Shown here: positions 29,822-60,105 of the stretch, piece by piece
How positions within the stretch are numbered: position 1 is the stretch's first letter
Layout of the letters: every line of letters starts with the position of its first letter
Source: Tribonema minus
Lineage: Eukaryota; Sar; Xanthophyceae; Tribonematales; Tribonemataceae
Direction of reading: 5' to 3'
DNA length: 64,000 bases
NCBI GenBank assembly: GCA_017506865.1
Contig: JAFCMP010000547.1
Span: 1,674,001-1,738,000 of the forward strand
The notes under the pieces: generated by a model
What the model saw: the letters and a program-made list of their open reading frames with translations, nothing else
The model's database searches: none
Told to the model about the DNA's origin: nothing
Position numbers and translations under genes: made by a program

Positions 29822-32800
29822 CTATTTGCCGTTGAGGTACTGCGTGATGCTGCCCTTGCTCGCCTTCTTGGCAGCGCCCTTGGGCTTGGCGCGCTGACCC
29901 GCGGTGTACCACAGCGGCGGCGCCGGCGCGGCCCCCGTGTGCTTCACCAGGAACTGCTCGATGCCGCCGGCGGGCGGGCTGAGCCGCGTCAGCTGCTCCA
30001 GGCGCTGAGATGGAGGCAACAACGTTACAAGGGCATATTCATGTGTTGATGAGAGAAATTTACAGTCTCGTGAAAGAGGGCGTCCGTTGGGTGTGCAAAC
30101 TAGGTGGTAGTTGAAGATAGAGCCGGTGCAGGGGCAGAAGCACCGTTTGAGCGTCACTACAATCGCTGAAACAGCATGTGTCAGAGGCGGCCGCAGTAAC
30201 GCGCTCGGGCAGGGAAAAGGACTGACGCGCGGGCGAAGCTGACGGAGCGGCAAGTATCAAATGCTGACCGTAAACGAGTCGTGTAGGTACAACATCTGCG
30301 TGTCGTAGCGCTCTAAGGAAGGATCAATCAAATGTACAGTAAGGCAGCCTGAGGCTTGTGTCATCGCCCACCACTGCCGTGCCCTACATACAGTGTACAG
30401 GACAGACTGGGCGCTGCTATCGCGACTGCAGCGGCCTCTCAACCCCTGCACATATTTTCATGTCAGTAAGACACATCTCGTACTGAAAGGGCCAAAATCA
30501 CTCCAGCCCAAAGTGTACCTTGCAATGCTGCAAAAAAGGCATACCAGTGGCCCAAATGATGCTGTTTCGAAGTACATGAACAGCTGATGCTTTGAAGTAA
30601 GTTCGCTCAATTGTCAGGTGGCCCCAATCGCGTCAGAAGGAGCATACCAGTTGACATTATTGAGCAAAACAACAATGCATGAGCAGCGGCACCTCAACTT
30701 CTACAAGCAGCACCACCACGTGCGCTACGCAGCAGCCCCACAAAGCTCCACCTACCACACATGAGTTCTTGCATGAAAAAGTGACAGGCTTCACCGCGGC
30801 AGCGCTCACCTGCTCGCCGCATGTCCTCCGGCGGGTCCACGAACCGCGCCGCATAGGCATCATGAATTCATGCACGTGCGTGGAAATCGACAGGCTTCAC
30901 TGCGGCTGCGCTCACCTGCTCAAATTCCTGCCGCATGTCCTCCAGCAGGTCCCCAAGCCGCGCCCTGCCGCCACCATGAATTCATGCACGCGCGTGAAGA
31001 ATCGACAGCGTTCATCGCGGCAGCGCTCACCTGCTCAAAGTCGTGCCGCACGTCCTCCGGCAGATCCACAAGCCGGTGCCAGAAATTCATGCACGCACAT
31101 AAATCGACAGGCTTCACCGCGGCAGCACTCACCTGCTCAAAGTCCCGCCGCATGTCCTCCGGCAGTCCACGAGCAGCCGCAATGAATTCATGCACGCGCG
31201 TGAATCGACAGGCTTAACTGCGGCAGCGCTCACCTGCTCACAGCCGCGCCCCGTAGCTGCCATTAATTCATACACGCGTGAAAAAGTTCACAGGCTTCAC
31301 AGCGGCAGCGCTCACCTGCTCCAAGTTGTGCCGCATCCTCCGGCGGATCCACGAGCCGCCGCCATGAATTCATACACGCGCGCGAAAAATCGAAAGCATT
31401 CACCGCGGCAGCGCTCACCTGCTCAAAGTCGCGCCGCATGTCCTCCGGCAGGTCCACGAGCCGCGCCCTGTAATCGCCGTGGCCCTCGAGGTGCGCACGC
31501 CCGCCCTCCGCGTCCACGGACGCGCCGCACAGCGGGCACTCCAGCTGCGAAGACTGCGGCGACAGCCGCCGCCGGCTCCTCGCATCGCCGGCGCCGCCGC
31601 CGCCGCCGCTGCCGCCGCCGCCGAGGCTGCTGCTACCGCCGCCGCCGAAGCTGCCGCCGCCGCTGCCACCGCCGCTGTTGCCGCCTTTGACGTGGCTGGC
31701 AGCCCCGCCGTTGCGGGCGGCGCCGCCGTTGCTTCTGCTTTCGCAGTTGCTGTCGCCAATGCGCCCGCCGCTGCCGCTGCCGCCGCGGTCACTGCTTTGT
31801 TGGTGTCCCGTACCGGAGTGTCGTGCTCCAGCGGCCAGCACCTCGAAACTGCTAGGTGACGGTTTGATGTCAGCGCTATGGGTAGGCGGCGAAGGTTGCA
31901 GCGCCTGCGACTCCGCCTCGTGCTTGATTGGTGGCAAAGGCGCGGGCAAGCGGCACACGCGCTGATCGCTGCCTGCCTGCGCAGCGGCGGCACCGGCGGA
32001 GGCGGCCGGCGCAGCACCGCCGGATAGAACGCCGCCGCCATCGCTGATACCCTGCTGCACATCGTCGCCGCAACGGGCGCTGTCGCCATGCTGAGCAGTG
32101 CCGCTTTCATGCGGAGCGCTGCCACCATGGCGAGCGCTGCTGTCGTCTCGTTGAGCGCTGTCCCTATGCGGAGCGTCCCCGTTGTCTGCGCCGTGCGCGC
32201 GCTGGCGCTTGCGGCGGCGCGGCGACATTGATGTCTCCTCGTCAGCGCCGTGCTCTCGCCCCGCGTCCCCCTTGACCGTGTCGTCAGGGGCACCGCTGAT
32301 GGGGGGGGGGGTAGGGGGGCAGGGGGAGGGGGCGGCCTTCTGGCGCGCCTTGAAGAAGGATGTGATCTGCGCGTAGACAGACAAAAACAAGAGATAAATC
32401 CCCAAGAGTGTGTTGAATCTTATGTTCGTTCCACGAAATGTGTGCCAAGTGAAGCACAGCTCAGCGGGTTGAGGCAGTGCAGCCTGTCTGATGCTGCTGC
32501 ACGTCGTGTGCGACTGTAACACCGCTAGGAAAGAACGCCTGAACTTCAAGAGGTTAATAGGCGAGCACCAGTGGACTTCTGCAAGATGGGTTCTCCACAG
32601 CTGTAAGCCGGATCACGTGTACTTGCAATCGCTCCTGCGCCAGGTGTGGCACTGCCACTACGGTCATGAGTGTAGATCCACAAGCGAGGCTTTGTTGAGA
32701 CTGAGCAACCTATGTCCTGGAGAGGGCACAACAGAGAACTCGCTTTGCATGCACACTTACTGCCAAGAAAATGGCATCGATTTCGCTGGTCAAGATAGAT

Positions 32801-35800
32801 GCAATAGAGACAATTGAGTGGAATGTAGCCTTAACCCAACTCAATTCCCCGACTTAGCATCACATGCGCTCAGAGTGATTATGATGGCAGAGAATTCCAC
32901 GAGACACTATCATCAGTCGTCGCATCATGCTGCATGCTGCCTGCTTGATGTGTGGCACATGGGGGCCAGATACTTATACTTGGTTACATAGTCACTGTGG
33001 TTGTGTGCCTTGAACCCCTCAGACGTGGTTGCGCCTGCTCGCACAGATTTACTGAGAGCTGGCCTTATACAGTGCGAAGTAGTTAGACAGTTGCCCCAGA
33101 GGCATTTAACTTTGTTACGATTTACAACCAATGCTAAGGGTAACGGCAGCATTGACTCACCGGCGGCACATTGGGGATGTCCTCAAACCCGTCGGCTGCG
33201 ATGAACATGGATGGAAACATGTTGTAAAACTCTACTTCAAAGGACTATTATGGAAACAATTGTGCACGCATTTTGGAAATTAGACTGAGTCGTCAACTTC
33301 GTTGCATGTGTAGTTGAAGTTGCAGATTGGGCTCACCGGCGGCACATTGGGAATGTCTTCGAACCCATCGGCGGCGATGAACATGGATGTTATGCCCCAC
33401 GACCGCTGCCCGCTCAGCCACTTGGACACCTGCACAAAGGTGGCAGCCGCCGCAGCATACACAAAAGCTCAAGGCTTCACCAGCACATACTTCAAGTTGA
33501 AGTCATTCAGATTGGCATTGTGTTGTTATGCGCCGCGACCGCTGCCCGCATTTGCCATTTGGAGACCTGCAGAAAGCAGCCCCGAATGGCACGGAAGGGC
33601 TTAACTCATTCAAGTAAAAGCGCATACTCAAGTTACGTACTTTAAGTTAACGTGGCATGAAGCACTCCACGACGAAAAAGCACACCTGGTGAACTGAAGC
33701 ACTCCACGACGAAAAAGCACACCTGGTGAACTGATGCGGGGCGCCTAACAACAAAACTCGAACATCAAACAGCTCGGAAACAAACTGCTACTGCACAGGA
33801 CATGCAGTATAACACTAACCCTAAGCGTTCGCCTCCCCTCATCCTGACCTCCGCCATTGCTGGCAGCGCCTCTCCAGAATCACAGAAACGCGTGCGCGCT
33901 CACTGCCATATGCACAAGCTACGTTTACTAAGCAATACAGCTTATCCATTGCCGTCCGCGTGCGCATGCGTCATTGCCGATGCATTCCAGCGGTCACCTG
34001 ATACTTCACAATTGAAGTAGGACGGAGGGCGCGCGCGCGCTGGCCAGCGCGAGCGTGCCGCACGTCCTGCCCCTCTGCCAGTCTGTCAACGCCGTCGTGC
34101 CAGTACCGCACTGCGCAGAAAATGCTGTCCAAATCAATTCAGCCTGCACCGGACGCCGCCGTCTAGCCTGCCCAACCCCTGACCCTAACCCTAGCCCCAG
34201 GTCGGCCTCGTACCTGCGCAAACATATCTGCCGCCATAATCTGCGCGCGCTCCCGAAGGTCACAACTGCGCGACGCGGCGTGGTCATTGGTGTCGCTGTT
34301 CGTGCCGCCGCTGCTGCTGCCGCCGCCGCATAAATAAATGATACGAATCGCACCACAGCGGCGCCGAATGGTGGCGCCTCGTACGTGCGCGAACGTGTCT
34401 GCCGCCATGCTCTCCGTGCCCCCCCGGACGTCGCAGCAATGCGATACGGCGTTGCTGCTGGTGTCGCGGTGCCGCCGCCGCCGCCGCCGCCGCCTCCGCC
34501 ACTAATACACCTTTCTCAACATAACCCTAAAATTATTGATGCAAACAACAGGTCGTGCACGCATGCATGCGGGAAAAGTAGTGCAAACAGCACTAAGTAG
34601 ATCGGCGCCGAATGCTGCTGCCTCCTACCTGCGCAAACGCGTCTGCCGCCATGCTCTCCGCGCCCTCCCGGAGGTCGCAGCTGCGCGATATGGCATTGCC
34701 GCTGGTGTTGCGGTACGTGCCGCTGCCGCCGCCGCCGCTGCCCTCCGGCGTCAGATGCACCGTCAGCCGCGTTGCTGCGCGCTGCGCGTTGGGGGAGGGT
34801 GGGCGCGGCAGAGTGTGCAACTCATTATGATGATGTATGAGTTCTGTTCAGCTGCAGTGGCTGCTCCGCCGCGCACACATTTCATGAAAATGAGTCATGC
34901 GCTGCTGTGGTGGCCGCGGAATGGCGCTACCCTTTGGCATCAGGTGCACCGTCAGTCACGTGGCTGCACGCTGCATGGGGGGGTGGGGTGTGTGGGGGGG
35001 GGGGGGGCGAGTGATGCGCACAGGTTCATATTGATGCGTCATGCTACCACATTGTCTGCACAATGTAGTGGTGCACACACACGACATGCCACTGTCAAGT
35101 GCGTACTGTCAGGAGCATGCGGATCGATGTCGGTGCGTCGCCGCAAAAGTTCGGCAAAAGCGCGTCTTTTGTGTAAGTGCGCAGGTACATCATGGCAGTG
35201 CTCCACAGGGGCGAACGTGCGGCACAAGCAGGGACAATCTTGCCCCAGCATGTAACCTTGACACAGCGCAACCAGTAACCTTAAAAGAGTCCTTGACCCG
35301 ACATAAGGTGAAACCCTAACCCTAACCTTGTGGTCCGCTCTCTGCGCATCCAGCCGCTCTTGGATCTCAGCCGCTAGCTCCAGCAGCCACCGCTTGAGGG
35401 TTTCCTCACTAGCAGGGGGGGAGGGGGGGGGTGCAAATCAGGAAGCGGAAAGTCACTGCAGCGTGCTCACTTTGCACTGAAACCCCCCTGTCCAAATCCT
35501 CAGCGCTGACGCAATAAGCAAGAGGGGGGACGGGGGAGTGAGGGGAGCGGGGGCATTTGTGGCTGTGACTGGAGTGCAGTGAGTACTGGAAGAAGGCTGT
35601 TGCTGACCACAACGGCTCTAATTGGGGCTCTTGTTGCTGGCGCGCGTGAGCGACAGGGGGAGGGGGGGGGGGCGGCGGGGCAGGCAGCACTGACAAATGG
35701 GGTCATGCTGGGAAGTCACCACGATCTCATGAAGTGCGCTTCGACCTGCTATCGGAAATGAGCTTTCATCCTGCAAACAGTGCACACGGCGCACTCTTGC

Positions 35801-38800
35801 CGAGGCGCCGCCACGGGTTTGTGTGGCACAGCTTCAAAAATATATATATCTACATTCTTTTGATTCGTTTTCATACATGTTTGACTCGTGGCCAATTGCT
35901 GCAGCAGCAGCGACCACCGTTACTGGTGGAAGGCACTTGCAGCTAACCATCCCTTGTCACCTAGAACTCTACGACTTTTGAATCGCTTTCATATATACTT
36001 GCACACGCATGGCAGGCACCGTTGACACTTATTCTGACCCTGGCCCTGGACACAAATTCCTGCGGCGGCTGAGTGCACGGCAGACGCTCGCTGATAATCC
36101 TGAACTCAAGTGAGCATATGAGTTATGTGGCCCGCGGTGTGTATATATGTATGTATATAGGTGTCGTGCCACGCCTGGTGCACAGCGCTGACCTATATAC
36201 CTGGCAGAAGCACACTCACAGACACGTTTCACGTTTCACGACAACAATACAGACGCAGGGGCGGCGCAGTCAAACATCATGTTCTGTGGCGCAGCCGTAT
36301 TGCGCTGAAAGTGCAGCGGTTCATGCGGTCAGGGAGAAGAAGAGTGGTGGTCTGCCTGCTCGTTGAGCGTTCGCGGCTGCTGGTCGCAACGGCGCAGGTC
36401 AGAGCAGAGTCGAGGTGGGATACAAGTGAATGGCCGAGTGTCTCCGTACATACATGCAGAAGGGGCTAAGGATTGCACTGAGAGGCCGTCAACATGCTCG
36501 CCCCCTGATTCGCCATGGCACTGCAGCTCAACTACAACTTCAACTTGATGTCACCCACGCGCGCTCATTGCCCGTTCACCTACTCGGCCGCAATCCACTG
36601 CGGCAAATACACACTCACGTTCTTATGCAGCTGTTTCCGTAGAACGTCTTGCCACAGCTGACGCTCTTGGACAGCGCGCGCTGCACCACAGGGGTGAGGT
36701 CCACCTGAGGCGGCAATCATGAGAATTCATGAATAAGCGACTCATGATTCATGAGTGATTTATTATTGTTGATTCTGGCTGAGGGCGTGCGAAGAAGCTC
36801 AGATGGTTGATGTGAGGCTTGCTACTAGAGTGAGTGCTTGGAGTACTAGACTATGAGGACGACAACATTCATCTCAGCCACCATGCAAAAGAGCGCGCGC
36901 TGCGCCACAGGGGTGAGGTCCACCTGAGGCAGCAAACATTGAATATCACAAAAAAAAATGAGCAGTTCAATAATTAAAAAGTGTATTCTCTGTTGCTTGT
37001 GAGGAGGGCACGAAAAAGCCCAGATAGTTGCTGTCAAGCTTGCCGCCAGAATGAGTACTTGAAAACCATGAGGGCAACTGAGCGGCCATGCAAAAAGCGC
37101 GTGCTGCGCCACAGGGGTGACGTCCACGATGCGGAGGACATGACATTTGAATAGACTAATGAGTTGTTTACAGTTCACGAGCAAGTATTTGTTGCACCGT
37201 GAGAATGACACCATCCGAATGCGCCACAGGGGTGGCGTCCACCTGAGGCAGCAATCATGACGTTTGATGAACGAGTAAAACACAATTAATGATTGAGTGC
37301 TTCTGGCAACGTGAGCAAAGCACCAAGTGTGACATTTGATGAATGAGTAATTTACGATTCATGATCTAAGTACTTGTGGCACCATGAGAACAAAACCACG
37401 TGTCCAAGTGCGCCACAGGGGTCAGGTCCATCTGAGGCGGCAAATGTGACATTTGGTGAATGAATACTTTACACTTCATCATGAACGATTATACTTCAAA
37501 TATGTGGACACCATGAGAGCAACACCTGTCCGTCTGCGCAACAGCCTCAGGGGCGACGTCCACCAAAGGCGGCGATCACGACGGTTGACGCCGCCATACC
37601 GCATACCTACGTACGCAAGCGCTCGATGTCACGCCGTACACGTACGTACATGCGCAATCGCAGCTGCAGAACTGGGGTCAGCGGCGTGCGTGCGCCGCAA
37701 CCTGCTGCAGTAGCCCATGCCCGTGGAACTGCAAACAGGCATGTGCACATGTGCGGTTCAGCGCCGCAAGATGCGGGATTGCTCATCAAGCTAGGACTAG
37801 CTAGGGGCACACAGCCTAGGGTTGCACGCTCTAGGTTTACACGACTCCACGCCACCGCCCCCCGGAGAACGGAGGCACTAATTGCCTTAGTTTTAGCTGT
37901 GGTTGCAGCGCCTTGGATCAGCGAGATTCCACTGCGTCACTGCGTGCCCAGGACCTGCGCACGCTGCAGTGTGCATCCGCAAAACTCGAGGCAGTTGTCG
38001 GAGACGCCAAACCCGAGACTGCGTGCCGGGGCCGCATGCGCAGGCATGCGCACACGCGCTTCCCAGCCCGAGGAAAGGAGAGGCTGGGCTCAGCTACGGT
38101 AACACCTCCCAAATTACGCAGTCTAAGGACTTGCGCTTGACCTGCGTACGCGGACAACACCGCAGGGATTGAGAGTGGAAACCAAAACTGCCTTGTTTGC
38201 GGCCTCACCCCGCGCGCCATGTCCGCCAGCAGCGCCGCCTGCTTCTCGCCGTACAGCCTGCGCAGCGTAGCCTCGGGCATGGCCGCGAGCTCGCCTGCGG
38301 TCGTTACCTTCAGGTCAGAACGCACCTGCGGCATCGTGGGAAGTTGGATGGCAGAAGTTGAAGTTCAAAAGCAGAAGTCTGGTTTCAAGCATCGGCTTGG
38401 CGTAGTGTCCCGAACCGCATGGGGCTGAGCACACGATAAAAGTGGAGTTGGATGGCAGAAGTTGAACTTGAATAGAAGAAATGTTGGTGTCAGAAATTAG
38501 GGCACGGCCGCGAGTTCGCTCGCCGTCGTTATTTTCAGGTCCGACCGCACCTGCGGCGCCGTGGGCGAGAAGTGAAGTTGGATAGCAGAAGTTGGAGTTG
38601 GAACAGCAGGAGTTTGGTTTAAAAGTTGTTGAAATTAAATGGCAGCAGTTTGATTTCATAAATCGGGCAAATCGGGCACGTTCGCGAGCTCGCCGCCCGT
38701 TGCCACATTCAGGTCCGACCGCACCTGCGGCGTTGTGGGCGTGAAGTGAAGTTGGACAGCAGAAATTGAGGTTGATTAGCGTGAAGTTTGGTTTGTTAAT

Positions 38801-41800
38801 CGCAAATACGGCACGGCCGCAGCCTCGCCCCGCCGTCGTCACATTCAGGTCCAAATGCACCTGCGCGACGTGGGACGTGAAGTGATGTTGGATGGCAGAA
38901 GTTGAATTTGAGTAGCAGAAGCTTTGGTGTCACAAACCGGGCGTGGCCGCGAGCTTGCATGCCGTCGTCACGGTCAGGTCTGAACCGCACGGCGTAGTGA
39001 ATCACTCACGCACAAACGTACACATATTGCTGACAGTTGCAGACTTGCATGTTTGTGCGAAGCGATGGTTCACAGCTGCAGTTGCCTGTGAAACTGGCGC
39101 GACACACCCCTGGTTGTAACCCCAAGTACAATCACGGGATATGATCTGCAAAAACAGCAAGCATCTGCATGATGGCTGCATGTGCACCTCCAGCCTTGTA
39201 ATTCAATCATGTATCGACATCAGTACTGGCAATCACCTGTTCGCCTAGCTTCCCACCGAGCCCCCTGATGCGCTCAAGGGGTAGCCCCTCCATGAGGCCT
39301 GCCACCTGGCTTGCCGGGACCTGGGAGGGAGGAGGAAGGGCACAAGGGGCATATTCAAGGGGGGGGCAGGGGGGGGGGAGGGGGATCAGTGTTCGTGCTT
39401 GAGTAATACATGTTGTTTCTGCTCCTCCAAACACCTGTAGCAGCCATCGGAGTTCTTGCATTGTCGCATGGCTCTGCCAGAGTTGCGGAGCTAGGCTGGC
39501 AGTGATGAAAAATCACAATTTAGGAACTTCAATTTGTACTTCATGTGCAGCCACCCGCTTGCTGATAGACATGGCGGTGAGGCCCAGCGACTTTCACTTG
39601 CTGTACAGCGAGTCTATTAGTCAGAGTCTGTATAATACACGTAACTATACGCTTCCCACTGTTTGCTCGCAGCGCTCATGTAAGGCGAACAATGAAGGCA
39701 CCAAAGCTTGCTGGCGAAAACGTCATGAGGAGGTAAGTAAAGCTGAGGCTTGTGGAGATTGCCTTGACCACATTAAACCTGAACAGCATCTTGTCCTGCA
39801 CTCAGTGAAATGAGAAATGGACGGGGGCACAAGAGAAACATAGTGGATACTGCGGGGTTACGTGAGCAGCTGGTCCGCTTGCGCATGCGTGCCGCAGTGG
39901 TCAATTCTGCTGAGCACTGACGTGTTGGTGACTTGCCACCGCCTGAGCTACATACAGTACCGGACAGACTGCTCCCACCGCATCAACACCAGAAAAGATT
40001 GTGGTGAAACCAACCACATCAGCAAACCCGGGAAGCCGAAACTGAAGGAGATGGTACCCCCTCTGGGGCAGTGCAGCTGGCCTGCCACGGTGAAATCATT
40101 TTGAGGTGAAAAAATCACATTTTTTCATTGCTATACATATACTGCTGAGCACTGACTCACCACCGTCTGCTGCTTGGGCTTGTGCAGTCCGCTGGCCAGC
40201 TTGGCCATGCTCTTGTTGTGCGCGATGCCGCCGCTGCGGCGACAGGAGGAGCGTGCGTGCGCTTGTCAGAAAAGACAGGGGTGATGGAAACGATTCAAAG
40301 GATCGTAGAGCTCTAGGTGACAAGGTGTGGATCGTAGAGCTCTAGGTGACAAGGTGGGGTTAGCTGCCAGTGCCTTCCACCAGTGATTGTGGTCGTCGGC
40401 GCTGCAGCAATTGGCCACGAGTCAAACAGTGCCACCATGTCCACAGGAGCCAAAAGACTTCTGTGTGCAAGCTTGATGTTGCGGCGTCTAGATGACATGC
40501 TGCAGCAGCATATTCCTTGTTGCAATCAATCTGAACACTAGCAAAAGTAAAAATAATAGACTACGCAGTGGTAGTGGGCGCACGTGTCACAAAAGAGAAA
40601 GGGCGGCGCAGCGGCGCGATTGCATGCTAGCAAGTACGTACTATTGAGCCGCATGCGCTCTCTCACAATGCTGTTTACACTTTGCATCACATGGCAAGGG
40701 GGTGTAATGTGGCGCCCCATGAAAAAAGAGAGAGCGTACCTGTGATACTTCACACGTAAACTGGCATTTCACACGTAAACTGGCATCATCCTTTGATATC
40801 ATTCGACGTGAGCATTTGCAGCTGTGTGAAGTCCTTGGAAAAACGCAAGTAGGTCAAAGTTGTCAACACCACGCCCGTCCTGATTGACTGAGAATGGAGC
40901 ACATGCTAGAGCACATTTTCCCTCCTTCAGTGGGAGACACGTTACAGCGGAGAAAGACTGGTGGGAGAGAGACCCTGACGCTATTGCATAAAATCACTTC
41001 ATAGTGGCTGCAGCTTACACTGTGCTCCAAAGTTGCGTGACATGCAGGCTTTGACCTCGCTGAAACACGTTCACGTCATTGTGCTCAATTTCAAAGATGC
41101 AATCCGGATTTCAGTCCTCGCCACAGTCTACCATATTTCAATGTATGAGGCATCACACGGCCTGCACTCGTTGTGGCCGCCCCTACGTATCGGTAAGGGG
41201 CACTTCACTTACTTCTAAATGCTATCACAGATGGCATCGACTCGATTGCGGAAGTCATGTAGACGTACTGGCTCCCACCAAAGTGCTTCAAGTCTTGATC
41301 GCTTTGCATCGACTCTCCCGCCAAATGATTTTTTGTCAAACCCATGATGGCGCTTTTTAATAATGAGAGTGAAACGCATTCACAAAGTGAAGCGCAAGGC
41401 TCAATTCATGCACTAACACGATGAGGCGCGTGCTCACGCATGTAATACCTTGCAAATATGCCAAGGGCGTCACCTGCACGTGTAGCCCAGCTTTTTGGTG
41501 ACCATGTCGCGCAGGCGCGTGACGACGGCGGCGCCACACGCAAGTAGCCGCTCCTGCGCACGGCAGCAGCGCAGCATTGCTCAGCACAAGGGACGCACAA
41601 GTACACAAGTTGCATCACACGCAAGCAGTAGCTCCTGCTCACACACACAAACACACCACGCAAGCAGCCGCGCCTGCACAGGGCAGCGCGCAGCAGCACA
41701 GCATTGGTCAGCACAGGGGACACACGCATACACAGGGCGCATCACGCACAAGCAATTGCGCCCCTGCGCAAAGAGCGGTGCGTAGCGACACAGATGCCAC

Positions 41801-47825: not shown

Positions 47826-48159
47826 TCTCGCTCGGATTGCTCCTTCGACCTATGCCTGAAAGTGCCGACAGCCCACGCGCTGGCTCACGCCCTCAGGGTG
47901 ATCAACTTTTTCTGAGCACCATCAGCTGCAGCAGTGCGCTCCGCCTTCCCTCACTCCGCGTCACTCCTCTTCTTTTTTGGCGCCACTCCGGAGTTCCAGT
48001 TGAAGTTGGTTAAGTTCACTATTGAACTTGAAAGCGAACAGAGACCACGGAGAGAAGCCTCGGCTGTACAGCATTGCTGGCTCTGTGCAGATCTGGCCAC
48101 TTTCCGAGCCTGGGAAATCAACTGCGCTGCTGCGTGTACAGATTTCTCTGCCTGCAAGG
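47826..48159. promoter_or_regulatory. Divergent promoter region of POLH and THOC7
   Basis: The two start codons (47825 minus, 48160 plus) are only 334 bp apart, head to head, so both promoters and 5' leaders must lie here unless untranslated first exons overlap. An E2F-like word, ttttttggcgcc, is at 47973-47984, and TTCAA/TTGAA words lie at about 48000-48030. No TATA box is obvious. Shared control is inferred from the arrangement. Confidence 0.5.
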
Positions 48160-51100
48160 ATGGAGGACGATCACTTGATGAGCCGGATCTACTCCAGGGA
48201 GTTTGCTCTTCTGCAACCACACATCGGCAGCGTGACTTCGAAATGGTTGAAGGTGCGCACGCTTTGACCAGCTTACACCATCACCAAAGTGATGGTGGAT
48301 CCTTCAAAGTTGCCCAGAAGCTATGTCTATGCTGCCTGTCAACGCTTGCCTTTTCGATCTCTCTGGTGCCCCAGGCATTTGTGACGCTTCCCAAGGGCGA
48401 AAATTTGATGGAAAGTGTCTACAAAAGTCGAGTTAAAACCGAGAGATTCACACAAAATTGGACAGCAGCTGAGTGCCTCGGCGTGCGGTGGTGTTCTGGG
48501 TTGAAGAGTTTGGTGAATGTGAATCGTGTTGGACACTCAAGAAGCCCGTCATTAGACAGTCAAGAATGGCACCAGGGCATGCACATGCTTTGCACTCGAG
48601 GTCTGTCATGTACGTTGTCTCAATGTAATATATGAAAACACTGCGCATTTGCACTGCACGATGGAGTCTCGTGGTGACGGTGCTAAGCTTTCGTGTCGCA
48701 CCGCCTGGTGGTGCATGTAGTATCACCGGCTGTCGGCTGGAGTGGTGGCTTTACCATGGCATGCTGCGTTGTATGGCATGCAGGCACCTACAAGCATGAT
48801 GAAGTACTGACCAGATGCAACAAGCAATGTCACCTAGTGAGCCAATGGGATAGTGTGCCACACGTATGTGCCACACGTTTTCTCTTCTGTGGCAGAGGCA
48901 GATCTTCTTTCAAGATAGAAAGACACTGAAAGGTTGATGGCATATCGGTACAGTACAGGACAGCTGAACAACATACAGGACAGCTGCTAACGCTGCACCT
49001 TGATGGTTGCCGTTGCTGCTCCTGCACCAGTGCTTGACTTCCTGAAGCCGAAGTGCTCGCAACTGACCTGCGTGACAGCTCTTGGCGTTGTGCGACCGCA
49101 CGCAACGTATTGATGGTTGACACCACAATGAACGGGGATAGTGTTGGGGGCTTTCTGAGTCACGTTGCACGGCTGGGCAACCTCTGCAACGACCTTCTTG
49201 CTGCCCACGCACACTCATGATGCGCAGGTGGTGGACACCCTGACAAAGGGGGACAGTCCCCATTGATGCAAAAACACTAAAAGTATGCTGGTATACCGGC
49301 ACTAGATAGCTGAACCTGGTCAGGCTAACGCTTCTTTTTCATTGCAACGGTCCTTTCCGTCCTACGCACACGCGTGACGCGCAGGTGGTGGACACCATGA
49401 TGAGGGGGAAGGTGCCCATGCACGCGAAGATACTGAATGTATGATGGTATACCGGCAATAGACAGCTGAACCTGATCAGGCTAACGCTTCATCTGTATTG
49501 CGACGATCCTTTTGCTTCCTACGCACACGTGCGACGCGCAGGTGGTGGACACCATGATGAAGGGCGACGTCGCCGCGCGCGATAAGGCGGGGCACCTGCA
49601 GAAGGCGGTGGAGGCAGTGCTCATCGAAGTGAAGAGCTTCGGCTTTGACATCACGCGCAACGCGTACCTCCACCACTCCACCGAGCTGGAGCTGAAGCAG
49701 TGCGACGCGATGCAGGTCAGCCTGACCTGCGATCGATAGCAGCAGGCCTCTTGTGGCGCACCTTTGAGACGGAAGATGGAGATGGAGAGTTTCGGCTCAG
49801 TTAGGATACTACGCGCATTGCACATGTTGAGCGCTGCCATGAAGCTGCTTTCAAAGCAGTGCAACACGACGCAGGTTGATGAGCAGTGACGTCGCTTGAA
49901 CGCGTCCTGGTGAGCATCACAATTCATACATACCAGTTGCAACGTCCACTTTTGGCACCTGGCTTCATGCACATCACAGTTGCGCAGTTTGAGACGCAGA
50001 ATGATCCCCCACCGCATGCGCCCCCAAAGGCAGATACAGCAGACTCAAAAGGCAGATGCGGCAGACTGACGCAAGCGGCGCTGCACCTGCTCTCCCGCCA
50101 CCCCGCAGCGGGAAGTCGAAACGGACGTTACCAAGGTGAAGGACGAAATTGAGGGGCTCAAGGCGCAGCTGCAGCGCGCGCGGACGGCGCGGCGGCAGCG
50201 CTCAGAGTGCGAGGAGCTGGCGCGCGCGGCCAACGGGCTGCAGCCGCGGCGCATGGCGGGCCTGGAGATCGCCGCACTTGAGGTGTGTACTTGAAGTTCA
50301 TGTGTACTTGTATGTACTGTATGTGGTGTCGTTTACCGCGTTGAGAATACTGCGAAGAGCGTCAGTCAGCCAATGCAGGCGCGGCACATGGCGGGCCTGG
50401 AGATCGCCGCACCTGAGGTAGGTGCACACTTGAAGTTCTCATGTGTGTACTTCTGTGTACGCATGTCGTTTATCGTGGTGGGAATGCTGCCGAGAGCGGT
50501 ACTTGAGTGGTAGTTGGCCAATGCAGCTGCGGCGCATGACGGGCCTGGAGACCGCCGCACTTGAGGCACGCTTTCACTGTCCTCCGCGTTGAGGCTGGTG
50601 CTGTTGATGCGCTCCATTGTCGGCAGCGCTTTGGGGCTGTGGGGTATGGTGTTCGGTGCACTGACGCTCGCCGCTCGGTCAGCTTCACACTGTCGCCCGC
50701 TTCACCTCCGATGCTCTCAGCATCCCAGCCGTCGCTGCTGTCTGCACTGCAGCTGCTCATGCTCTGAGGGCTGCTGTCATTGGCAGCAACAGCGCACAGC
50801 AGGCTTTTGAAGCTGTACTCCATTATCTGGTCACACGTCCTGATGAAACCGCTCCGTTTGTGTCTGCGCGTCGCACACCGACAGGGGAAGCTCGCCGCGG
50901 CAGCAGCGGAAAAACGGCGTTCGGACGCCGCCGTCGCGCTCAGGGAGCGGCAGTTTCTGCTGCTGCTGCAGACGCTGTACGAGCTGCAGTCAGCGCTCAG
51001 CGAAGGCGACGGCACGTCACCACTGGAAGAAGAGGATGCGGAGGGGCAGGGGGAAGCTGCGGAGGGGGGCGAGGACCCCGGGGAAGAGGCGGAGGGGGAG

Positions 51101-51205: not shown

Positions 51206-52850
51206 ATGATGATGTGTTTCGATGACTGCATTAGCTCGAGTTGTCTTTGTGCTGCAATGCTGCTGACTCAGTGCTGAGTGACTGCATTGTCATGCGGACA
51301 GCGCTCCTTTGCTGCTTTTGCTTGGCCGGGCGCTGGTCGGTCGCTTGCAACGCTGTGTGCGGGGCACGTGCCGCTCACCATGGCTGGTGGACAGTCAACT
51401 GTGAAGATAGGCCATCTGTCACACCTTTTACGTGTGCGGTACTGCTGGTGACGCTTGGCTGCGCTGATTAAACTCCATAGTGCCACAGGCGATGCTGATG
51501 CCACACTTTTGCTACGCTAGAAAAAAAGAAGAGTGCGTGTTTGACTTTGACAGGATCTTCAAACCTTTGCACTGTGTCAACTCCACCCGAATCTGAACCT
51601 TGGCTGGCAGGCACAGCAGTGGTGGAGCTATTCGCGACAGTGGCACAATCACTCCAAGATGCGCAAAGTGCTTGGTTTTTTTTACCCCACCAGTCGATGT
51701 CTTGAAGAACTTAAAAAAAAAATGAAATGCCAAACTTGAATATTGCAATGAATACTTCAACTTGTGAAAGTGGAAGTGAAGGGCATCGCATACTCTGTGC
51801 AAGGGTGCCGGTCGGCCAAGGTGTAATTAATTATTTGATCAAAAAGGCACAATGGAGGAGGAGTATCTGGAGCAAGCAACAGCGACAGCTGCAGCAGCAT
51901 CATTAAGATCGCCAGAAAACCAGCGAAGAGCAGCAGCACCCGGCGGTGGCGAGGCTTGCTGCTCTACAGGAGCGTGGCAGCAGCTGTGAGCGCTGCCAGC
52001 AGAGCGTGCACGGCTCTGCCGCAGCGACTCACGCTGCTGCCGCGGCTGCATCAGTGGAGACAGTGCCTGCTGGCGGCGAGGCCGGCCACAAGACGGATGA
52101 CGGACGCGCAGGAGCCTGTCAGGTTAGCGCACGGCCTTTACGAACTCAAATCACCGAAGCTGGACAAACCTGCATTGACACGACCTCAACGTGCATAACA
52201 AGCAACTGCCGATGCATGCATCGTACTGGATTGCAGCCGTGAATTTCATCACTAATAATGAATCCGCATGCTGGCTACACTGGCGCAGCGGCAAGCCTGC
52301 TTGATTCCGCCGGCCTCGAGGAGGCTGGCATGATAGGGGCGTTTCGCTGCGGCCCACCACAGTATGCAGTCAGCTCTAAGCAGCGACACTGGATCTCTAT
52401 GCTGATTGATGCGCATGCGGTCCGTGCGAGCAAAAATATCTGGAGTGAAGGCCACCTGCTCTGGCGTTTGTTGCGCCAAGTCTGCGCCCCCCCTGTCACG
52501 ACTGTTGCGGGAAGTAGGACCATCACCTGCACGTGCATTCCTCATTTTGAGTGCAGGTCGTTGGACCGTCATGTTGACAACTACGCACATGACGAGGGGC
52601 CTGCAGTAAATCTTGTGTAGTGAGTGCTGATTAAGCAGTGCTTTCCATGCGTCTGCGCACATGCGTCATATCATGCATGAAAGCAGTGTTGCCTTGTTGC
52701 CATTTATTCTGACGCGCAGTGGTTACACAGGCACGCCTCTGCTGCACCCCATACGCGGTAGCAAGCCGCTTGCACTTGTATTCTAGTTCCAATTGAGAGT
52801 GTATGCCAGTCCCGATCAGTTGAGGAGAAATGTGGACCTTATCATCGGAC
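51206..52850. other. Intergenic, no gene recognised
   Basis: 3' side of THOC7 followed by about 1.6 kb without a recognisable gene. Short frames at 51946-52242 and 52258-52620 have no signature, no clear splice framing and ordinary composition. Confidence 0.5.
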
Positions 52851-53042
52851 GCCTGCCAGTCCTAAGTGCGTCGGATCTTTGAGTTCCGCCACAGCAACAT
52901 CAAAGATGGTCATGCAAATTAGCAGATACTTCAAAGCACCTGCTGCGGAACTGAGTGCAGCGAGCCATGACACCACTCGCCACGGCGGCCCCCTGTTGGC
53001 ACACATGCTTTCGCTGCTGGGCAAGCAGATTCCCTCCAGCAC

Positions 53043-55271
53043 ATGCGCGTCACCAAGAGAAGCCGCTGCGTGCAACTTCAGTTTCAATGCCGGCCACACG
53101 CTGGCGTGCGCGCTGTGCGCGCAGAACAAAGTGCGACACAAGCTGCTGCAGCAGCTCGCACTCTTCATCATTTTGCAGAGCCATACAGTGTAACCACCCT
53201 GGGATCTGACCGAGTCGAGTGCTGCGTGTCGACTCGCGTGCGCCGCAGCGCAAAGTGCGATGAGCCGTTGGACCAGCTCATGCAGGTCGCCATCGGCGCG
53301 GTGCCCGACCCGCACACAGAGCCGCACGCCGCAGCGCTCAGCACCTCTGCAGCGGCGCAATCGCGCGCAGCGGCAGCAGCGCCAGCAGCAGACGCGCAAG
53401 CGCCGCCCGCAACTGCTGCCGAATGCGCGGAAGCCGCCGCAGCAGCAGCAGCAGCAGCGGCGGCAGCGGCGATCAACTCGCCTATCCGCAGCCCCCGGCC
53501 ACAGGCGCCAGCGGAGCTCCCCCTAGAACTGCCGTCTGTGCATGTTTTCAGCGCAGCGGCAATGGACGGCGCGTACCTCCGCGGCGGCAGCAGCAGCGGC
53601 GGCGGCGGCGGCAGCGGCGGCAGCGGCAGCGGCGGCGGATTGCACGCCTGGCGCGCCCCAGCGCCCGTTGCCGTGCGGGCGCCGTTCCTCGGCGGCATCG
53701 GCGGCGCGCGCAACAAGCTCCACCTGCGGCGGACGACCCGTGCGGCCAGCGCCATGCGCAGCAGCAGCAGCGGCGGAGACAATGGCAGCGACGGCAGCAG
53801 CAGCGGTGATTTTGTCATCGACGGGCGCGTGGTGCAGCCAGAGTGGCCAGCACTGCCGACGGACGGCAGCGACGGCGGCAGCGGCGATGACGACGCGCTT
53901 GCAGACGGCGGCAGCGGCGGCGGCGACGGCGACGTGCCGCTCGCGGTCGCCTTCTACCGCGGCGCGCCCGACGACCGCGGGCGTGCGCTGCGCGAGATGC
54001 TGCGGCGCGACGACGAGTGGCTCGAGCGCACGCACAACTTCATCCAGTGGTGGTTCCCGAACGCGGAGCGCAGCGGCGTCAACTGGCGCGCGCCGCTCGT
54101 GACGCGCGCCGCGGCGGACGCGTTTCGTGCGGACGTGGCACTGCGCGCGCGCATGCGCTGCGCGCTCGTGCGCATGCTCTCATTCTACGGGCTGGTGCTG
54201 GTGGAGCGCGGCGGCGGCGGCGGTGCTCAGGGCGAAGGCGGCGGCGCTGGCGGCAACAGCGGCGCAAAGGGCGGCGGGAGTGCTGCTGGCAGCAACGGCG
54301 GCGCTGTTGGCGGTGGTGGCGAGGATACAACCGGCGGCTTCGCCCAGAGCGGAACTCACGGTTCTGATGGCGGCAGCAGCAGCAGCAACGCCGTCAGCAG
54401 CAGCACACATAACAGTGTACCTGACAGCGCCTCACACGGCAGCGGCGACAACGGCAGCTCCGCTGCCCGCGACGGCACTGATAATGGTGGCCGCAAGGCT
54501 AATGGAGCAGAGCCTAGCAGCAGTGGCAGTGGCGTCAAGGGCGGTAGCGGCAGCACTGAACACGGCAGTGGCAGCGGCGGCGCAGCCAACGCCAGTGCTG
54601 GCAGCAGCCACCGCGCTGATGACGGCACAGCAGGTGGTGGCAGCGGCGGCAGCGTGGCTGATAGCGAGCGCACCGCTCATAGCACTGCAGAAGGCAGCAG
54701 TGGCCCGATATATCAGCAAGCTAACAACGACGGCGAAAGCACTGATGGGCAGGGCAGCCAACACACCACAGTGGAGGCGCCAGAAGTCAGCAGCAGCAAC
54801 GGCGGCAGCAACGGCGGCGGCGGCAGCAGCCAGGCTGCAGCCACCCACGGCGCTGGCAGCGGCGGCGCTGATGGCGCCGGCAGCAGCGCCAGCGCCGCCG
54901 CAGCCGCCGCAGGAGCGTCACCGTCACTTGCAGTTGTGAAGGGGGCGAACTTCGCGGCGCGCGCGCCCAACTGGACGCGCCGCGGCGACCACAACCACCT
55001 GCGGCTTACGCGCATCATCAAGGCACTCGCGCTGGCGGGGCTCGGCGCGGAGGCGGCGGCGCTGCGCGATGGCCTGCTGAGGTTGACGGAGGTGCGCGAC
55101 GAGCGCGCGCGCGGGTTCTGGGCGCGCGCCGTCGAGGACGCGGACGCCGCGCTGAGAGATACTGGCGGCGGCGGCGGCGGCGGCGGCAGAGGGCGGTATG
55201 GCGGCGGCGGTCGGTATGGCAGCGGCGGTGGCGGCGGCGGCGACAGCAGCGACGGCCACATGTCGGACTGA
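53043..55271 (+). CDS. OGFr-domain protein with a large low-complexity insert
   Basis: A 742-residue open frame. Residues about 90-300 are Ala-, Ser- and Gly-rich. From about residue 300 the conserved region of opioid-growth-factor-receptor-like proteins appears: VAFYRGAPDDRGRALREMLR, DDEWLERTHNFIQWWFPNAE, NWRAPLVTR and MLSFYGLVL (about 304-386). The closing part, NHLRLTRIIKALALAGLGAE (about 651-670), is separated from it by some 260 residues of Gly/Ser/Ala-rich sequence. In relatives these two parts are close together. The tail is Gly-rich and ends GDSSDGHMSD. In animals such proteins are nuclear-envelope associated; in algae their role is unknown. The true start may lie elsewhere, since the first 90 residues look like shadow sequence. 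The same strand at 52879-53193 has an open stretch in another frame that might be an upstream exon. Confidence 0.7.
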   Translation: MRVTKRSRCVQLQFQCRPHAGVRAVRAEQSATQAAAAARTLHHFAEPYSVTTLGSDRVECCVSTRVRRSAKCDEPLDQLMQVAIGAVPDPHTEPHAAALSTSAAAQSRAAAAAPAADAQAPPATAAECAEAAAAAAAAAAAAAINSPIRSPRPQAPAELPLELPSVHVFSAAAMDGAYLRGGSSSGGGGGSGGSGSGGGLHAWRAPAPVAVRAPFLGGIGGARNKLHLRRTTRAASAMRSSSSGGDNGSDGSSSGDFVIDGRVVQPEWPALPTDGSDGGSGDDDALADGGSGGGDGDVPLAVAFYRGAPDDRGRALREMLRRDDEWLERTHNFIQWWFPNAERSGVNWRAPLVTRAAADAFRADVALRARMRCALVRMLSFYGLVLVERGGGGGAQGEGGGAGGNSGAKGGGSAAGSNGGAVGGGGEDTTGGFAQSGTHGSDGGSSSSNAVSSSTHNSVPDSASHGSGDNGSSAARDGTDNGGRKANGAEPSSSGSGVKGGSGSTEHGSGSGGAANASAGSSHRADDGTAGGGSGGSVADSERTAHSTAEGSSGPIYQQANNDGESTDGQGSQHTTVEAPEVSSSNGGSNGGGGSSQAAATHGAGSGGADGAGSSASAAAAAAGASPSLAVVKGANFAARAPNWTRRGDHNHLRLTRIIKALALAGLGAEAAALRDGLLRLTEVRDERARGFWARAVEDADAALRDTGGGGGGGGRGRYGGGGRYGSGGGGGGDSSDGHMSD

Positions 55272-55600
55272 GTCCCTCTCGCTGACGATACGGTGGCGAC
55301 GGGTGGTACGCCGGCGGCGGTGGCGGCGGCGGCGGCGGCGGCGGCGACAGTGACGGCCACATGTCAGGCTGAGTCCCTCATCGCTGACGGTACGGTGGCG
55401 GCGGGTGGTACGCCAGCGGCGGTGGCGGCGGCGGCGGCAGCGGCGACAGCAGCGACGGCCACATGTCGGACTGAATCCCTCATCGCTGACTGCTGCAATG
55501 GCGGCGGGCGGACGTCGGTGCAGCGGCGGCAGCGGCGGCGGCAGCGATGGCAACGGTCACATATCGGACAGAGTGCCGCATCGCTGACTGCTGCGGCAGC
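55180..55600 (+). repeat. Tandem copies of the 3' end of the OGFr-domain gene
   Basis: The last 90-120 bp of the coding region (ggcggcggcg runs, then gacagcagcgacggccacat and gtcggactga with stop, then gtccctcatcgctgacg) recur three to four times past the stop, ending near 55363-55373, 55464-55474 and 55557-55570. Later copies are more diverged. It resembles the junction copies seen in the introns of neighbouring genes, but lies at a gene end. Confidence 0.85.
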
Positions 55601-57367
55601 GGCAGGCGGCCGTTGGTGCAGCGGGCTATGGTGGCGGTGGCTTAGACAGCAGCAAGAGCTCCGTGTCGGACTTGTCCCTGGCAGCTGCGGCGGCGCACAG
55701 CGGCTGGCGTGGCAGCGGGCCTGGCGCCGGCGACAGCAGCGACCACTACATAGGGACCGAGTCCCTTACTGCTGCGGCGGCAATTGCGGTGGCGGTGGTA
55801 CGGCTACGGCAGTGAAGATGTCGTGATAGAATGCTGCCATGAGGATGCTTCGTAGCAGCTGTGACGACAGCACTAGAAGCCGCAGCCGCGGCAGCTATGG
55901 CAGTGCTGATCTGATCTTGCAGTGATCATGCGGCTGCCGAGATTGTAGTGACCGCCATACCTGCGATGGTCGCAACCTTGTTTGATCGCAACTGCGGAGG
56001 CGGCGATAGTTGCATTGGCAGCCAAGCGGCAGTTGGCCTGCAGCGGCCGCTGCTGCAGCGATCCGCGCTGCTCCGCCGTCTCTTCGTGCAAAGTGACCAA
56101 TGGCGCCACCATCAAGCAACGCCGTCATCATTATTTTGCAGTGTTTCCCATGCCAGAGACTGACGACAGCGGCCTGCTTCGCGGCTCGCATACATGGGTT
56201 TACGAGGCCACGCCAGCATGAGAGTCATGCGTGAGAGTCACTTGCTTGCATGCGCAACAATTTGGACAACGCTTGCGGCTGATGGCGCAGTGTTCCTTCC
56301 TGACAAGAATTGGCCTCAAAAAGCTGCTGCCAATGATGACGATGATGATACCTCAATGTATTGATTGAATGGAGGTCCCATGACGTGCATTGCTCACTTG
56401 CGGCTGCGTTGTTTTATCTGCAACGCATGCTGGTGGCATTGCGCATTACGATTAGAATTCGACTTCAAAATATGCAGGATGCAGTGGGCAGTGCTTGCAT
56501 ATTGTAGTGACTGTGCAGGCAAGCATTGCTGTTCTACACATGACCCAGATGATGACAGCACTCTGTACAGCTAAAGGACGCTTCACGAGCCAGTAATACG
56601 ATGTATACTTGTTTTACAGACTGCTGGCAGTATCAGTGCACGCTGTATGCAAACTCGTCGAAGTCGAAGCTGAGGCACGCACCGTCCCCCCCCCCCTCCA
56701 CACAGTCTCGGGCATGCGCCCGGGACCGTTCTGCATCTTCTCCGCGCTCGCAAGACCTAAGCCGTGACCTGTCACCTCACAGCTGCGATCATGTCCATCG
56801 TGACCTTGCCAGATGGCTCCTTGATGCAGTGTCTCAGTAACACGCCAAGTCATCAACGACACCGGCGACACGGTCAGGTAAGGCGTACCGCGCCCTTGCT
56901 GGCTGCTGCCCCTGGCAGCAGTTTGGATGTATGCTGCTGCCAACACCTGACGTGCGGCGCGATTACTGCCCAGATCGCAGTGCACTTCGTGGAAGCGTCC
57001 TCGAGGTTCAAGTGGCAGTTTCTAGTTCACAAGCCGGGGTGTGGCTACTACATGCTCCTTTCATTCACCTACAACTCTCGCCATTGCAGCAGGAATGCTT
57101 GCTGTCAACGACTCCATGGTGACGTTCAGAGCTTGAAGGCACGCAAGTTGAACGCGAAATGATCTTTGCAGCTGATGCTTACCTCCCGCTGCTACAAATC
57201 TTTGAACTGTGTGTGTTCTGCTGCATTCTGTATGTAGCGCCAACAGTGGCACGCACACTACCTGAAGGTGTGCGCTTCCGTGCTCCGTTGCCCCCTCCCC
57301 CCCCCCCCCCCCTGCCGTCTTGCCCTTAATCACCGCTAGGTTGAAGTCTTACTGCCGCCCTACGCTT
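55600..57367. other. Mostly non-coding; one candidate exon
   Basis: Decayed GGC-rich sequence to about 55850, then ordinary sequence without a recognised gene. A possible 48-nt exon lies at 56830-56877 (after gatgcag, before gtaagg) encoding VSVTRQVINDTGDTV, and might join an open stretch after the acceptor at about 56988 (ALRGSVLEVQVAVSSSQAG). These could be upstream exons of the Hint gene or of another gene. A poly-C run is at about 57297-57312. Confidence 0.35.
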
Positions 57368-57391
57368 ATGCGTTCTATTTGTGCAGCAGTC

Positions 57392-60105
57392 ATGCGCGCC
57401 TTCAAGAGCCTCCTGCGCGCCGTATTGCTGAACATCCTGCTTACAAACCTCATTTTTACGCAGGTTTGCGAAGCCGCGACATCCAGTTCAGGGTCCAGCT
57501 CTACCTTCATTCTCAAGTGAGTATGCGGAATCAGGCTGATCTTTTGTAGCGTACTATGCCAGAGACCAAGGTGACAGACACTGCAGAGCTGTGCAGGACA
57601 TGCGTTGACTGGCTCGGCGGGCGATGCTGCTACTAGTGCTGTACGTGATGGCTGTGAGCGCAAGCGCCATGTTCTGTCAGCTTCAAGTTGCCTGCTTGTT
57701 CGCTAAACCGAAGCCGTGATCACAGGCGGACCTGCTGCACTAATGATCATTTCGCGATTAAGAAATTCTTCACTGCGATGCAGCTTTGAGCTGGACATCC
57801 CCGAGCGCAACGCCGATGAGACCTACACCACGGTCGTATCGACGCTGGCTAGTGCACTACCGGGAGGCTCGGCCGGCATCTTTGTGGGCCGTGTCCCTGC
57901 CGCAGACGTGGAGGCTGCGTGTGAGTACATTGTCAACACTGGCAACTTCGACCTGCCATCGTCCATCACTGCCGCGGGTGCAACGACTGAAGCTACAACA
58001 CTGACGGTAACAGCCACGGGCGGATGCGGGGCTGCGGCTGCTGCTGCTGTCGTGCAGTCAGTGTGAGTGAACGAGAGTTGTCCACTCTGTGCCCCTTGTT
58101 GTACAGTTGGTACTGTTACACGGATTGTTCACTGTCGCAGCAACCCGCTGCAGCGGTCTAGAGCAGCTGGCAGCCCACGCAACAAGTACATCGGTGTCAA
58201 GAAGGGGCTCTAATGCAATGCGCCGATCATCATGCTATATGAATATGCGTGCTCTATGGCCGAGTCGCATCACCTTTTGCCAGCATCAGCATACCGCTCA
58301 GTTGCGGCGCTTTTAGTTATCTCATGTGATGCTTGACCAGGCGCTGGTATGCAGCGTCCTCTCAATATCTTGCCTTTTGCAGAGGGCGCGGATGAGGTTA
58401 GACTGGACAAAGAGGAAGCTCTTGAATTTGATTGTCACAGTCACCACGCTCCATCATTGACAAGCGCTCGTTGTATGCTCGCCCGCGTCTGAAGTCAGCA
58501 CTCAACGTGTGCCTGCACGCGCTTGCGCTATGATGCGCCTCAACCAGGTTTGAGGATCAGAGCACCGGCAACACGTATGCCGTCGTCTGCGACACAGACC
58601 CCAACGTCACCTCTGCGGTCGGCTGCGCCGTGTTCACCACTGGCGCCGAAGTGGACGCACTGTTCAACTCAGTGCGGCGACTCCGCAGCTCAGACGCCGG
58701 TCATCAGCAAGCCGGTTCGCTGCGGTTGCTTGGCGACGCAGAGTGTGTAGGGCCCGCGGCTTCTGGCGCTGCAACTGGCGCTGTCTGCGTTGCTGCTACT
58801 TTCTTCGCCATCTTCACGCTGGGAGCTTCCGAGGCTGCGTGCGAGGCCGCCATCGCGGCCAGCGGCACCGCAGGTGAGCTGGCGAGCATGTGCATGCGGA
58901 TAGCGCAGTGAAGGGTAGGTAGCAAAATTTGCGCCAGTGCTCAGCTTTCACATAGTTTTCACATGCCGACAACTCCATAATGTGACAGCGTGGCAGTGTC
59001 AGGGACTGATCAGTTGTGTACGAGCACACGTGGGCCAATGCTAAATGCCCAGACTTGCGGCTGTATTCATTTTTGTGTTGACAGCTGCTTACAACTCATG
59101 CTGCTGTCGGCATTGCCCTGCTGTCATGCCGCATCTGCAGTTGCCACTTGCAGTTCAAAGCTTTGACTTGGTGATTGCCGTGCCGTCATCACACACCTGC
59201 AATTGGCATTTGCAGTCCAAAGCTTTGACACACTGATTGCCCCGCTGGTATCCCACACCTGCAGTTGGCATCTGCAGTTCAAAGCTGGCTAAGGCAAATG
59301 GCGGCTGCCTCCCCTCCGACGCAACGGTGCTGCTGCGCGGCGGCACCACCGCGCGCATGGACACGCTGACCACGGGAGACCGAGGTTGCCGTGTGGAAGC
59401 AGGGGCGCGTGATCTACGAGCCCATCTACGAATGGGGTCACGGCGACGCTGATACCCTCGCGCCCTTCGTGGCACTGAAGCTCGAGGGCGGAGCGCGCCT
59501 GGAGCTGATGCCGGACCGCTTTGTGCCCACAGCCCCCGCTAACGCCCCCGGCGGCACACCGCTGCTCAAGCGCGCGCGCGACGTGGCGCGCGGCGACGCG
59601 GTGTGGGTGTTCGACGCGATGATGAGCACGGAACCTACGCCACGCGCCGTGCTCGACTCCACGCTCGCCGTCAAGCGCGGCCTCTGGAACCCCTACACGC
59701 TCAGTGGCACCATCGTCGCCAACGGCGTGGTGGCCTCCTCCCACAGCGCGTGGTTTGCAGACGGCGCCTTCGACAGCCTCAGCCTGCCTTTCAGCGCGCT
59801 GCCAGGCATCTACCAGGCCGCGCTCGCGACGGTGCGCGCACTGCGCGCGTTGCTGGGCGCCGCTCGCTACAACGCGCTGTACGACAAAATTGATGCTCGC
59901 CTGGTTCTGACGCACTTTGCAGCCGGCAACTTGGGGGCTGTTGGGGATGTTGTGGGCGCTGCTCGTGGCGTGCGCCGAGGTGCTGGCACAGGCGGTTGGC
60001 GCTGCGGGTACTGCTTGCGTCACGTCCTTCCTGCCGCTTACTGTGGTGGCGCTGGCAGCGGCGTGTGTGTGCCGCAGTAAGGGCAAGGTGGTTGCTGCTG
60101 CCTGA
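57392..60105 (+). CDS. Secreted Hint-domain (hedgehog/intein-type) protein, several exons
   Basis: Exon 57392-57516 encodes a signal-peptide-like MRAFKSLLRAVLLNILLTNL with a possible cleavage after CEA. Exon 57784-58062 (FELDIPERNADETYTTVVST...) and an exon from 58548 (FEDQSTGNTYAVVCDTD...), ending at a gtgagc donor after 58873 or at the stop 58911, join in frame. The exon from about 59290 carries the Hint domain: NGGCLPSDATVLLRGG with the cysteine at the splice position, LTTGD, then LMPDRFVPTAP, ARDVARGDAVWVFDA, and NPYTLSGTIVANGVVASSHSAW. Hint domains cleave themselves after the residue before the cysteine. Two apparent frame changes occur: an extra base near 59383, and near 59917, after which a hydrophobic segment (GLLGMLWALLVACAEVL) continues to a stop at 60105. 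The gene is therefore either decayed or affected by sequence errors. The substrate-side N-terminal domain is unrecognised. Confidence 0.65.
59130..59290 (+). repeat. Three copies of the acceptor region before the Hint exon
   Basis: The segment cacctgcagttggcatctgc followed by agttcaaagct occurs at about 59130-59165, 59192-59230 and 59252-59288. The last lies at the start of the Hint exon. Spacing is about 60 bp. Confidence 0.85.

Follow-up and report, generated by a model that had tools for sequence, protein, structure and literature searches.

Introns of the alga Tribonema minus, a xanthophyte of the PX clade, contain serial, diverged copies of the edges of their own exons together with the adjoining splice sites. 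We found this pattern in the DNA polymerase eta gene (POLH) within a window of 64,000 nucleotides (the whole stretch of contig JAFCMP010000547.1 analysed here, from an assembly of 158.18 Mb in 554 contigs), and analyses of other gene families confirmed that the observation is real and reaches past the window. These introns probably lengthen through repeated local tandem duplication of segments straddling exon boundaries.

Exon-edge copies in POLH and in other gene families

Self-comparison of the window revealed a cluster of diverged direct repeats at 30.7-50.6 kb. The POLH model for this region was built from the sequence together with Pfam and PDB matches; all 13 modelled introns are GT-AG, and the exons join into a single open frame of 479 amino acids. 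Its identity is indicated by Pfam IMS and POLH-Rev1_HhH (the HhH match being under its cut-off in each piece), by PDB alignments to Pol eta, and by its match to algal Pol eta at 46-47%. The last and first 60 nucleotides of each exon were aligned to the exon's own intron, using the other introns of the gene as a control. Copies were found in eight of the 13 introns, at nine junction sides and with local scores of 47-100, whereas no exon edge scored above 34 against the gene's other introns. Two extra introns downstream of the model also hold donor copies, giving 10 of at least 15 POLH introns with copies (the stretch between the last two exons lies outside the model), and the original prediction of at least nine such introns therefore holds.

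Beyond the window, genome-wide Pfam searches gave exon-by-exon matches in four families: 73 for CCT/Cpn60, at least 137 for kinesin (a lower bound, with 122 of 191 candidates scored), 36 for class I tRNA synthetase and 35 for MCM. An annotation-free analysis, in which overlapping matches within 1.5 kb were taken as a protein-level pair, covered 277 of these 281 rows (four kinesin rows were left out) and gave 27 copy pairs, 22 between a full exon and a fragment and five between two copies. Junction geometry was found in all 22 exon-fragment pairs, downstream fragments sharing the exon end and upstream fragments sharing the exon start, and in three of the five copy-copy pairs.

Introns were modelled in 10 CCT and nine kinesin genes, 21 of 78 adjacent exon pairs being excluded with no intron model or a weak one. 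The CCT set comprises all multi-exon loci found, leaving out one isolated match (C37). The kinesin genes are nine of several dozen loci, and C511, C246 and C168 had already shown duplicates in the match table; because the kinesin set is partly preselected and POLH is the gene in which the finding was made, results are also given for CCT alone. At a score of 40, an own exon-edge copy was detected in 20 of the 57 introns, while the controls gave 0 of 2280 for foreign exon edges, 0 of 114 for reverse complements and 2 of 57 for mid-exon segments. With POLH included, 32 of 70 introns contain junction-anchored repeats, eight contain internal repeats only, and 30 contain none. The resulting catalogue lists 89 copies; they occur at 37 junction sides, belong to 29 of the 70 introns and come from 11 of the 20 genes, and the pattern recurs across many contigs. 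At least two copies are present at 21 of the 37 affected sides, the highest number, eight, occurring in a CCT gene. Thus, repeated events at many junctions of unrelated genes, as proposed from the window, are borne out, and donor and acceptor sides are affected alike (21 and 16 of 70 each).

Geometry, divergence and consequences of the copies

The copies are direct, head-to-tail and located at the same locus as the exon. The nearest copy lies at a median distance of 158 bp (range 79-710), and successive spacings are 75-244 bp in 84 of 88 cases, with a median of about 150. At the minimal period the exon part measures 11-119 nt (median 46; 41 junction sides). Most copies (79 of 89) reach within 3 nt of the junction, and GT or AG is intact in 65 of these 79; the splice positions are conserved no better than their neighbours in the 43 donor and 30 acceptor copies compared. 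The claim that copies fade with distance from the true exon stands as a tendency: of 106 pairs compared within arrays, which are not independent, 78 have the nearer copy as the one more like the exon.

In 54 junction-spanning alignments, identity is 87.0% in exon parts and 75.1% in intron parts, broadly the 1:2 divergence that would be expected with constraint on the true exon alone. Raw differences from the true exon at codon positions 1-3 amount to 8.7, 6.6 and 16.5%. When changes were polarised by means of other copies, those private to a single copy (227 alignment columns) were near-uniform over the codon positions (70/66/91 changes in 368/372/368 columns; P=0.08), whereas changes shared by all copies relative to the exon were distributed 7/1/15, 14 of them synonymous and nine not. 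Together with 31 frameshifting gaps in the 89 copies, this pattern indicates that the copies decay near-neutrally, as non-coding DNA does.

Introns with anchored repeats are the longer ones, at a median of 924 bp (n=32) compared with 570 bp for the rest (n=38; P=4e-4). Anchored arrays make up 16.8 of the 55.7 kb of intron examined. These data agree with the earlier proposal that introns already present are lengthened. As for splicing, the public T. minus proteins CCT-theta (P0241) and CCT-gamma (P0242) match our gene models at 99-100% and, as given by the public gene models, contain the spliced peptide at eight of eight copy-bearing junctions. Furthermore, a near-identical protein from a transcript assembly contains the predicted peptide at seven of eight CCT-alpha junctions, the eighth corresponding to an exon missed in the model. 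It would appear from these peptides that mRNA splicing relies on the exon-proximal junction alone.

Origin of the arrays

In the mechanism we favour, a segment of mostly 75-244 bp lying across an exon boundary would be duplicated in tandem at the DNA level, presumably by slippage, unequal exchange or break repair. One junction would stay beside the intact exon and keep working, namely the first donor on the donor side and the last acceptor on the acceptor side. Selection would keep this working junction, the surplus exon edge and splice site would turn into intron and then decay, and repeated rounds would produce arrays of up to eight copies and longer introns.

Under uniform placement, with survival of all duplications that leave one intact junction, 23.2 of 50 arrays would be anchored at a junction; we observed 41. 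Of 15 settings for simulated nulls passed through the same detection steps, 12 gave an anchored fraction of 0.43-0.59 (P 2.5e-8 to 5e-4); for CCT alone (18 of 23 anchored), P ranged from 7e-4 to 0.045 over nine of these 12. The remaining three settings lack recent duplications and reach 0.70-0.97: one with ages of 0.10-0.25 and indels gave 0.705 (P=0.047; CCT alone P=0.29), an extreme one with 31 detections in 1500 gave 0.97 (P=1; CCT alone P=1), and one with a single age (t=0.20) gave 0.73 (P=0.098). Junction-spanning arrays are therefore likely to exceed what random placement would give, albeit with dependence on the assumed age. The excess is concentrated in multi-pair arrays, with 24 anchored and one internal, single-pair arrays being 17 and eight (P=0.04 vs 0.47); the junction enrichment of multi-pair arrays has P=0.023 overall, 0.027 without POLH and 0.34 for CCT alone, and units per array counted by footprint are alike in anchored and internal arrays (P=0.39). 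In addition, the simulations give longer exon parts than those observed (median 65 vs 46 nt; Kolmogorov-Smirnov P 0.004-0.009). The excess at junctions points to a further bias, in the sites where duplications begin or in the choice of arrays that are amplified; a duplication hotspot, preferential amplification or both may be its cause.

A considerable rival, which we hold to be somewhat doubtful, is that generic tandem duplication occurs everywhere and purifying selection does the rest, exon-internal duplications being lost and the conserved exon keeping old copies recognisable. The array in the OGFr gene had been taken as a splice-junction case. Read in frame, it crosses the first stop codon and extends into the 3' flank; a position at a splice junction is thus not established for it, and it would instead mark a boundary of constraint at which no splice site is known. 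This suggests that the process extends beyond splice junctions. The window holds six perfect two-copy tandem duplications of 19-46 bp, all of them away from modelled splice junctions, which suggests that very young tandem duplications are common there and points to continuing generic duplication. The stop-codon array and these short duplications argue for a generic input. Internal arrays with overlapping periods (92-293 bp), the weaker skew of single-pair arrays and the high anchored fractions of the older-only nulls (P=0.047 to 1) also fit generic duplication, as does the test of arbitrary regions described below. Against it stand the 41 of 50 anchored arrays in 12 of the 15 settings, the CCT result (outside the two settings with P=0.29 and 1), the 24 to one ratio of multi-pair arrays and the short exon parts.

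It is tentatively possible, albeit slightly less probable than such generic duplication, that exon boundaries are hotspots of continuing tandem duplication at which junction-spanning DNA is preferentially amplified. An unlikely but tangible version ties the hotspot to the junction itself, through breaks or slippage arising from transcription, splicing or positioned nucleosomes. The junction excess and the short exon parts would follow from it, and the spacing, typically near 150 bp, prompted the thought of nucleosomes, which has that spacing as its sole source. However, donor and acceptor sides are similarly affected, the stop-codon boundary of OGFr is affected too, and there is no AG|GT preference: AG|GT occurs at 16 of 21 copy-bearing donors and at 34 of the 49 other donors (P=0.77), and exons start with GT in six of 16 cases with copies vs 21 of 54 without. 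The AGGT-specific route put forward in the original prediction thus finds no backing, AG|GT being often present and unlinked to duplication.

Several results weigh against recurrent junction-spanning duplication as the account of these introns. By the exon-only criterion, nine of the 20 genes have no copies. In four arbitrary 10-kb regions, nine of 20 arrays cross a predicted coding edge vs 7.4 expected (P=0.28), in a test whose coding detector sees only seven of the 14 modelled POLH exons; eight of the 10 arrays in region L061 cross edges, and one of 10 in the other three together. The expectation that arrays start at junctions more often than at random sites is thus upheld in gene models, with the age dependence given above, and not in these four regions. 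None of the 10 null settings with both identities gave 87% in exon parts jointly with 75% in intron parts, so single-event neutral decay does not fully account for the data. Homology-maintained amplification, in which the conserved exon would preserve homology, was rejected as the only source of the excess: simulated in a simple form, it gave too small a contrast and fell short of the observed surplus of anchored multi-pair arrays. Separately, we note that the 10 arrays of L061 (G000:C13:700001-710000) together take up about 6 kb.

Other readings are much less probable. That the copies are functional, as alternative exons or decoy splice sites under selection, seems improbable. The frequent retention of GT or AG, the seven consecutive intact donors between 31.4 and 30.8 kb, exon parts conserved better relative to intron parts than in the nulls and the slight third-position excess of changes (P=0.08) could be read that way, but the frameshifting gaps, the near-uniform private changes and the ordinary conservation of splice positions speak against selection, and the copies are skipped in the public proteins at all eight junctions. 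An assembly artefact, one of the outcomes that would have undone the original proposal, is very improbable because the copies carry private changes, although tandem arrays are prone to misassembly; the recurrence on many contigs also argues against it. The least credible reading of all is an introner-like or other mobile element inserted at junctions. Many introns are affected, as such an element would have it, but a genome-wide search with the unit of the POLH intron 3 array matched its own intron only, and none of the 2280 cross-gene comparisons gave a match at score 40.

Features of the window and relation to known intron growth

Coordinates of the genes, arrays and short duplications in the window are collected in the table.

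Table. Features of the window discussed in the text (position 1 is the first nucleotide of the window)
Feature	Coordinates	Strand	Details
POLH (DNA polymerase eta)	33337..47825	-	14 modelled exons and 13 introns; basis: frame, Pfam, PDB, homologs
Donor-side array, POLH intron 3	45717..46653	-	exon end 46570; spacing 155-176; self-comparison and exon-edge alignment
Donor-side copies, POLH intron 4	44804..45302	-	exon end 45253
Acceptor-side copies, POLH intron 5	42693..43218	-	exon start 42778
Donor-side array, POLH intron 6	41961..42686	-	exon end 42632; 4 copies
Diverged acceptor-side copy, POLH intron 6	41537..41762	-	exon start 41553; score 25, under exon-only threshold
Acceptor-side array, POLH intron 9	38273..38990	-	exon start 38325; 4 copies
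Acceptor-side array, POLH intron 10	36673..37544	-	exon start 36704; 4 copies
Acceptor-side copy, POLH intron 12	34736..34990	-	exon start 34781
Donor-side copies, POLH intron 13	34205..34747	-	exon end 34629
Acceptor-side copy, POLH intron 13	33388..33576	-	exon start 33429
Donor-side copy past POLH exon ending 33337	33156..33389	-	91% identical copy at 33213-33156
Donor-side array past further exon ending about 31419	30755..31470	-	six copies; GAGCAG|GTGAG kept in all
THOC7 acceptor-side array	49185..49568	+	exon start 49542; 157-bp period
THOC7 donor-side copies	50239..50566	+	exon end 50282
OGFr array	55191..55624	+	102 bp (34 codons); starts in coding end, crosses first stop at 55269-55271, runs into 3' flank
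Array before Hint-module exon	59112..59286	+	62 bp; overlaps exon by only about 14 nt (by eye)
Perfect two-copy duplications	6363-6454, 15273-15334, 29191-29238, 33658-33734, 40300-40356, 40749-40786		

Two further genes of the window had been proposed to show the pattern. For THOC7 (PF05615, 41.5 bits), said to be affected in two of three introns, copies are present at one acceptor and one donor, the modelled introns covering only part of the gene. For the Hint gene, the array does adjoin the exon, and its overlap with it, judged by eye, makes it a weak case. The presence of a Hint module gene in a xanthophyte alga (57300-60200, + strand; Pfam PF01079, 46.9 bits) is an observation in its own right. 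Interstitial telomere-like TTAGGG runs lie within POLH introns (43399-43429 and, by eye, about 44700). Elsewhere in the assembly, the 20-kb contig G000:C336 contains two inverted, intact Y-family polymerase domains (L001 and L002) of equal score (129.6 bits), which could reflect a contaminant or an inverted repeat. The window also contains an LTR-retrotransposon-like element at 12733-23097 (- strand), in which one open frame holds reverse transcriptase, a second holds RNase H and integrase domains, and a further long open frame has no Pfam match.

Duplications crossing exon/intron borders are known, and are able to create introns (PMC4974935, PMC3443670). In both these cases and T. minus splice signals are reused, but intron creation takes one event to yield a new intron, whereas in T. 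minus existing introns would be lengthened by repeated events. The AGGT tandem duplication model (Rogers 1989; Hellsten 2011, via PMC3443670 and PMC4974935) likewise involves copying of splice-site sequence, yet AG|GT is not enriched at affected T. minus junctions. Internal gene duplication (Gao and Lynch 2009), in which segmental duplications with whole introns are reported according to PMC4974935, resembles our case in being tandem, local and within genes; unlike that system, T. minus has exon-edge copies inside 29 of 70 introns, with no new exon or intron evident. Among algae, tandem repeats are denser near intron-exon junctions in Chlamydomonas and Volvox (PMC3887541), and intronic repeats towards intron ends are thus shared with T. 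minus; there, however, the abundant intron motifs are GT/AC dinucleotides, and exon-edge copies are undescribed in the text available. Intron lengths of Chlamydomonas (PMC8226300) and 90-bp exon arrays of Tetrahymena (PMC6564038) provide further points of reference, and in Ectocarpus, also a member of the PX clade, about 46% of the genome is intron, the autosomal median being 524 bp (PMC12477816). In the literature searched, and no further than that, we met no account of introns composed largely of serial copies of their own junctions. Border-crossing duplication is known, and duplication on the scale of T. minus was not met in that literature.

Lineages differ greatly in intron length, and what drives the difference is often obscure. 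In T. minus, the origin of much intron sequence can be read directly, as its own exon edges. Since many true junctions stand beside decaying duplicate splice sites, these introns offer a natural test of how the spliceosome chooses among near-identical sites, and T. minus provides a system for watching intron growth and possibly gain. If exon boundaries are indeed hotspots of continuing duplication, introns would be self-lengthening, seeded by their own exons, and this might partly account for the long introns found in the brown-algal/xanthophyte clade.

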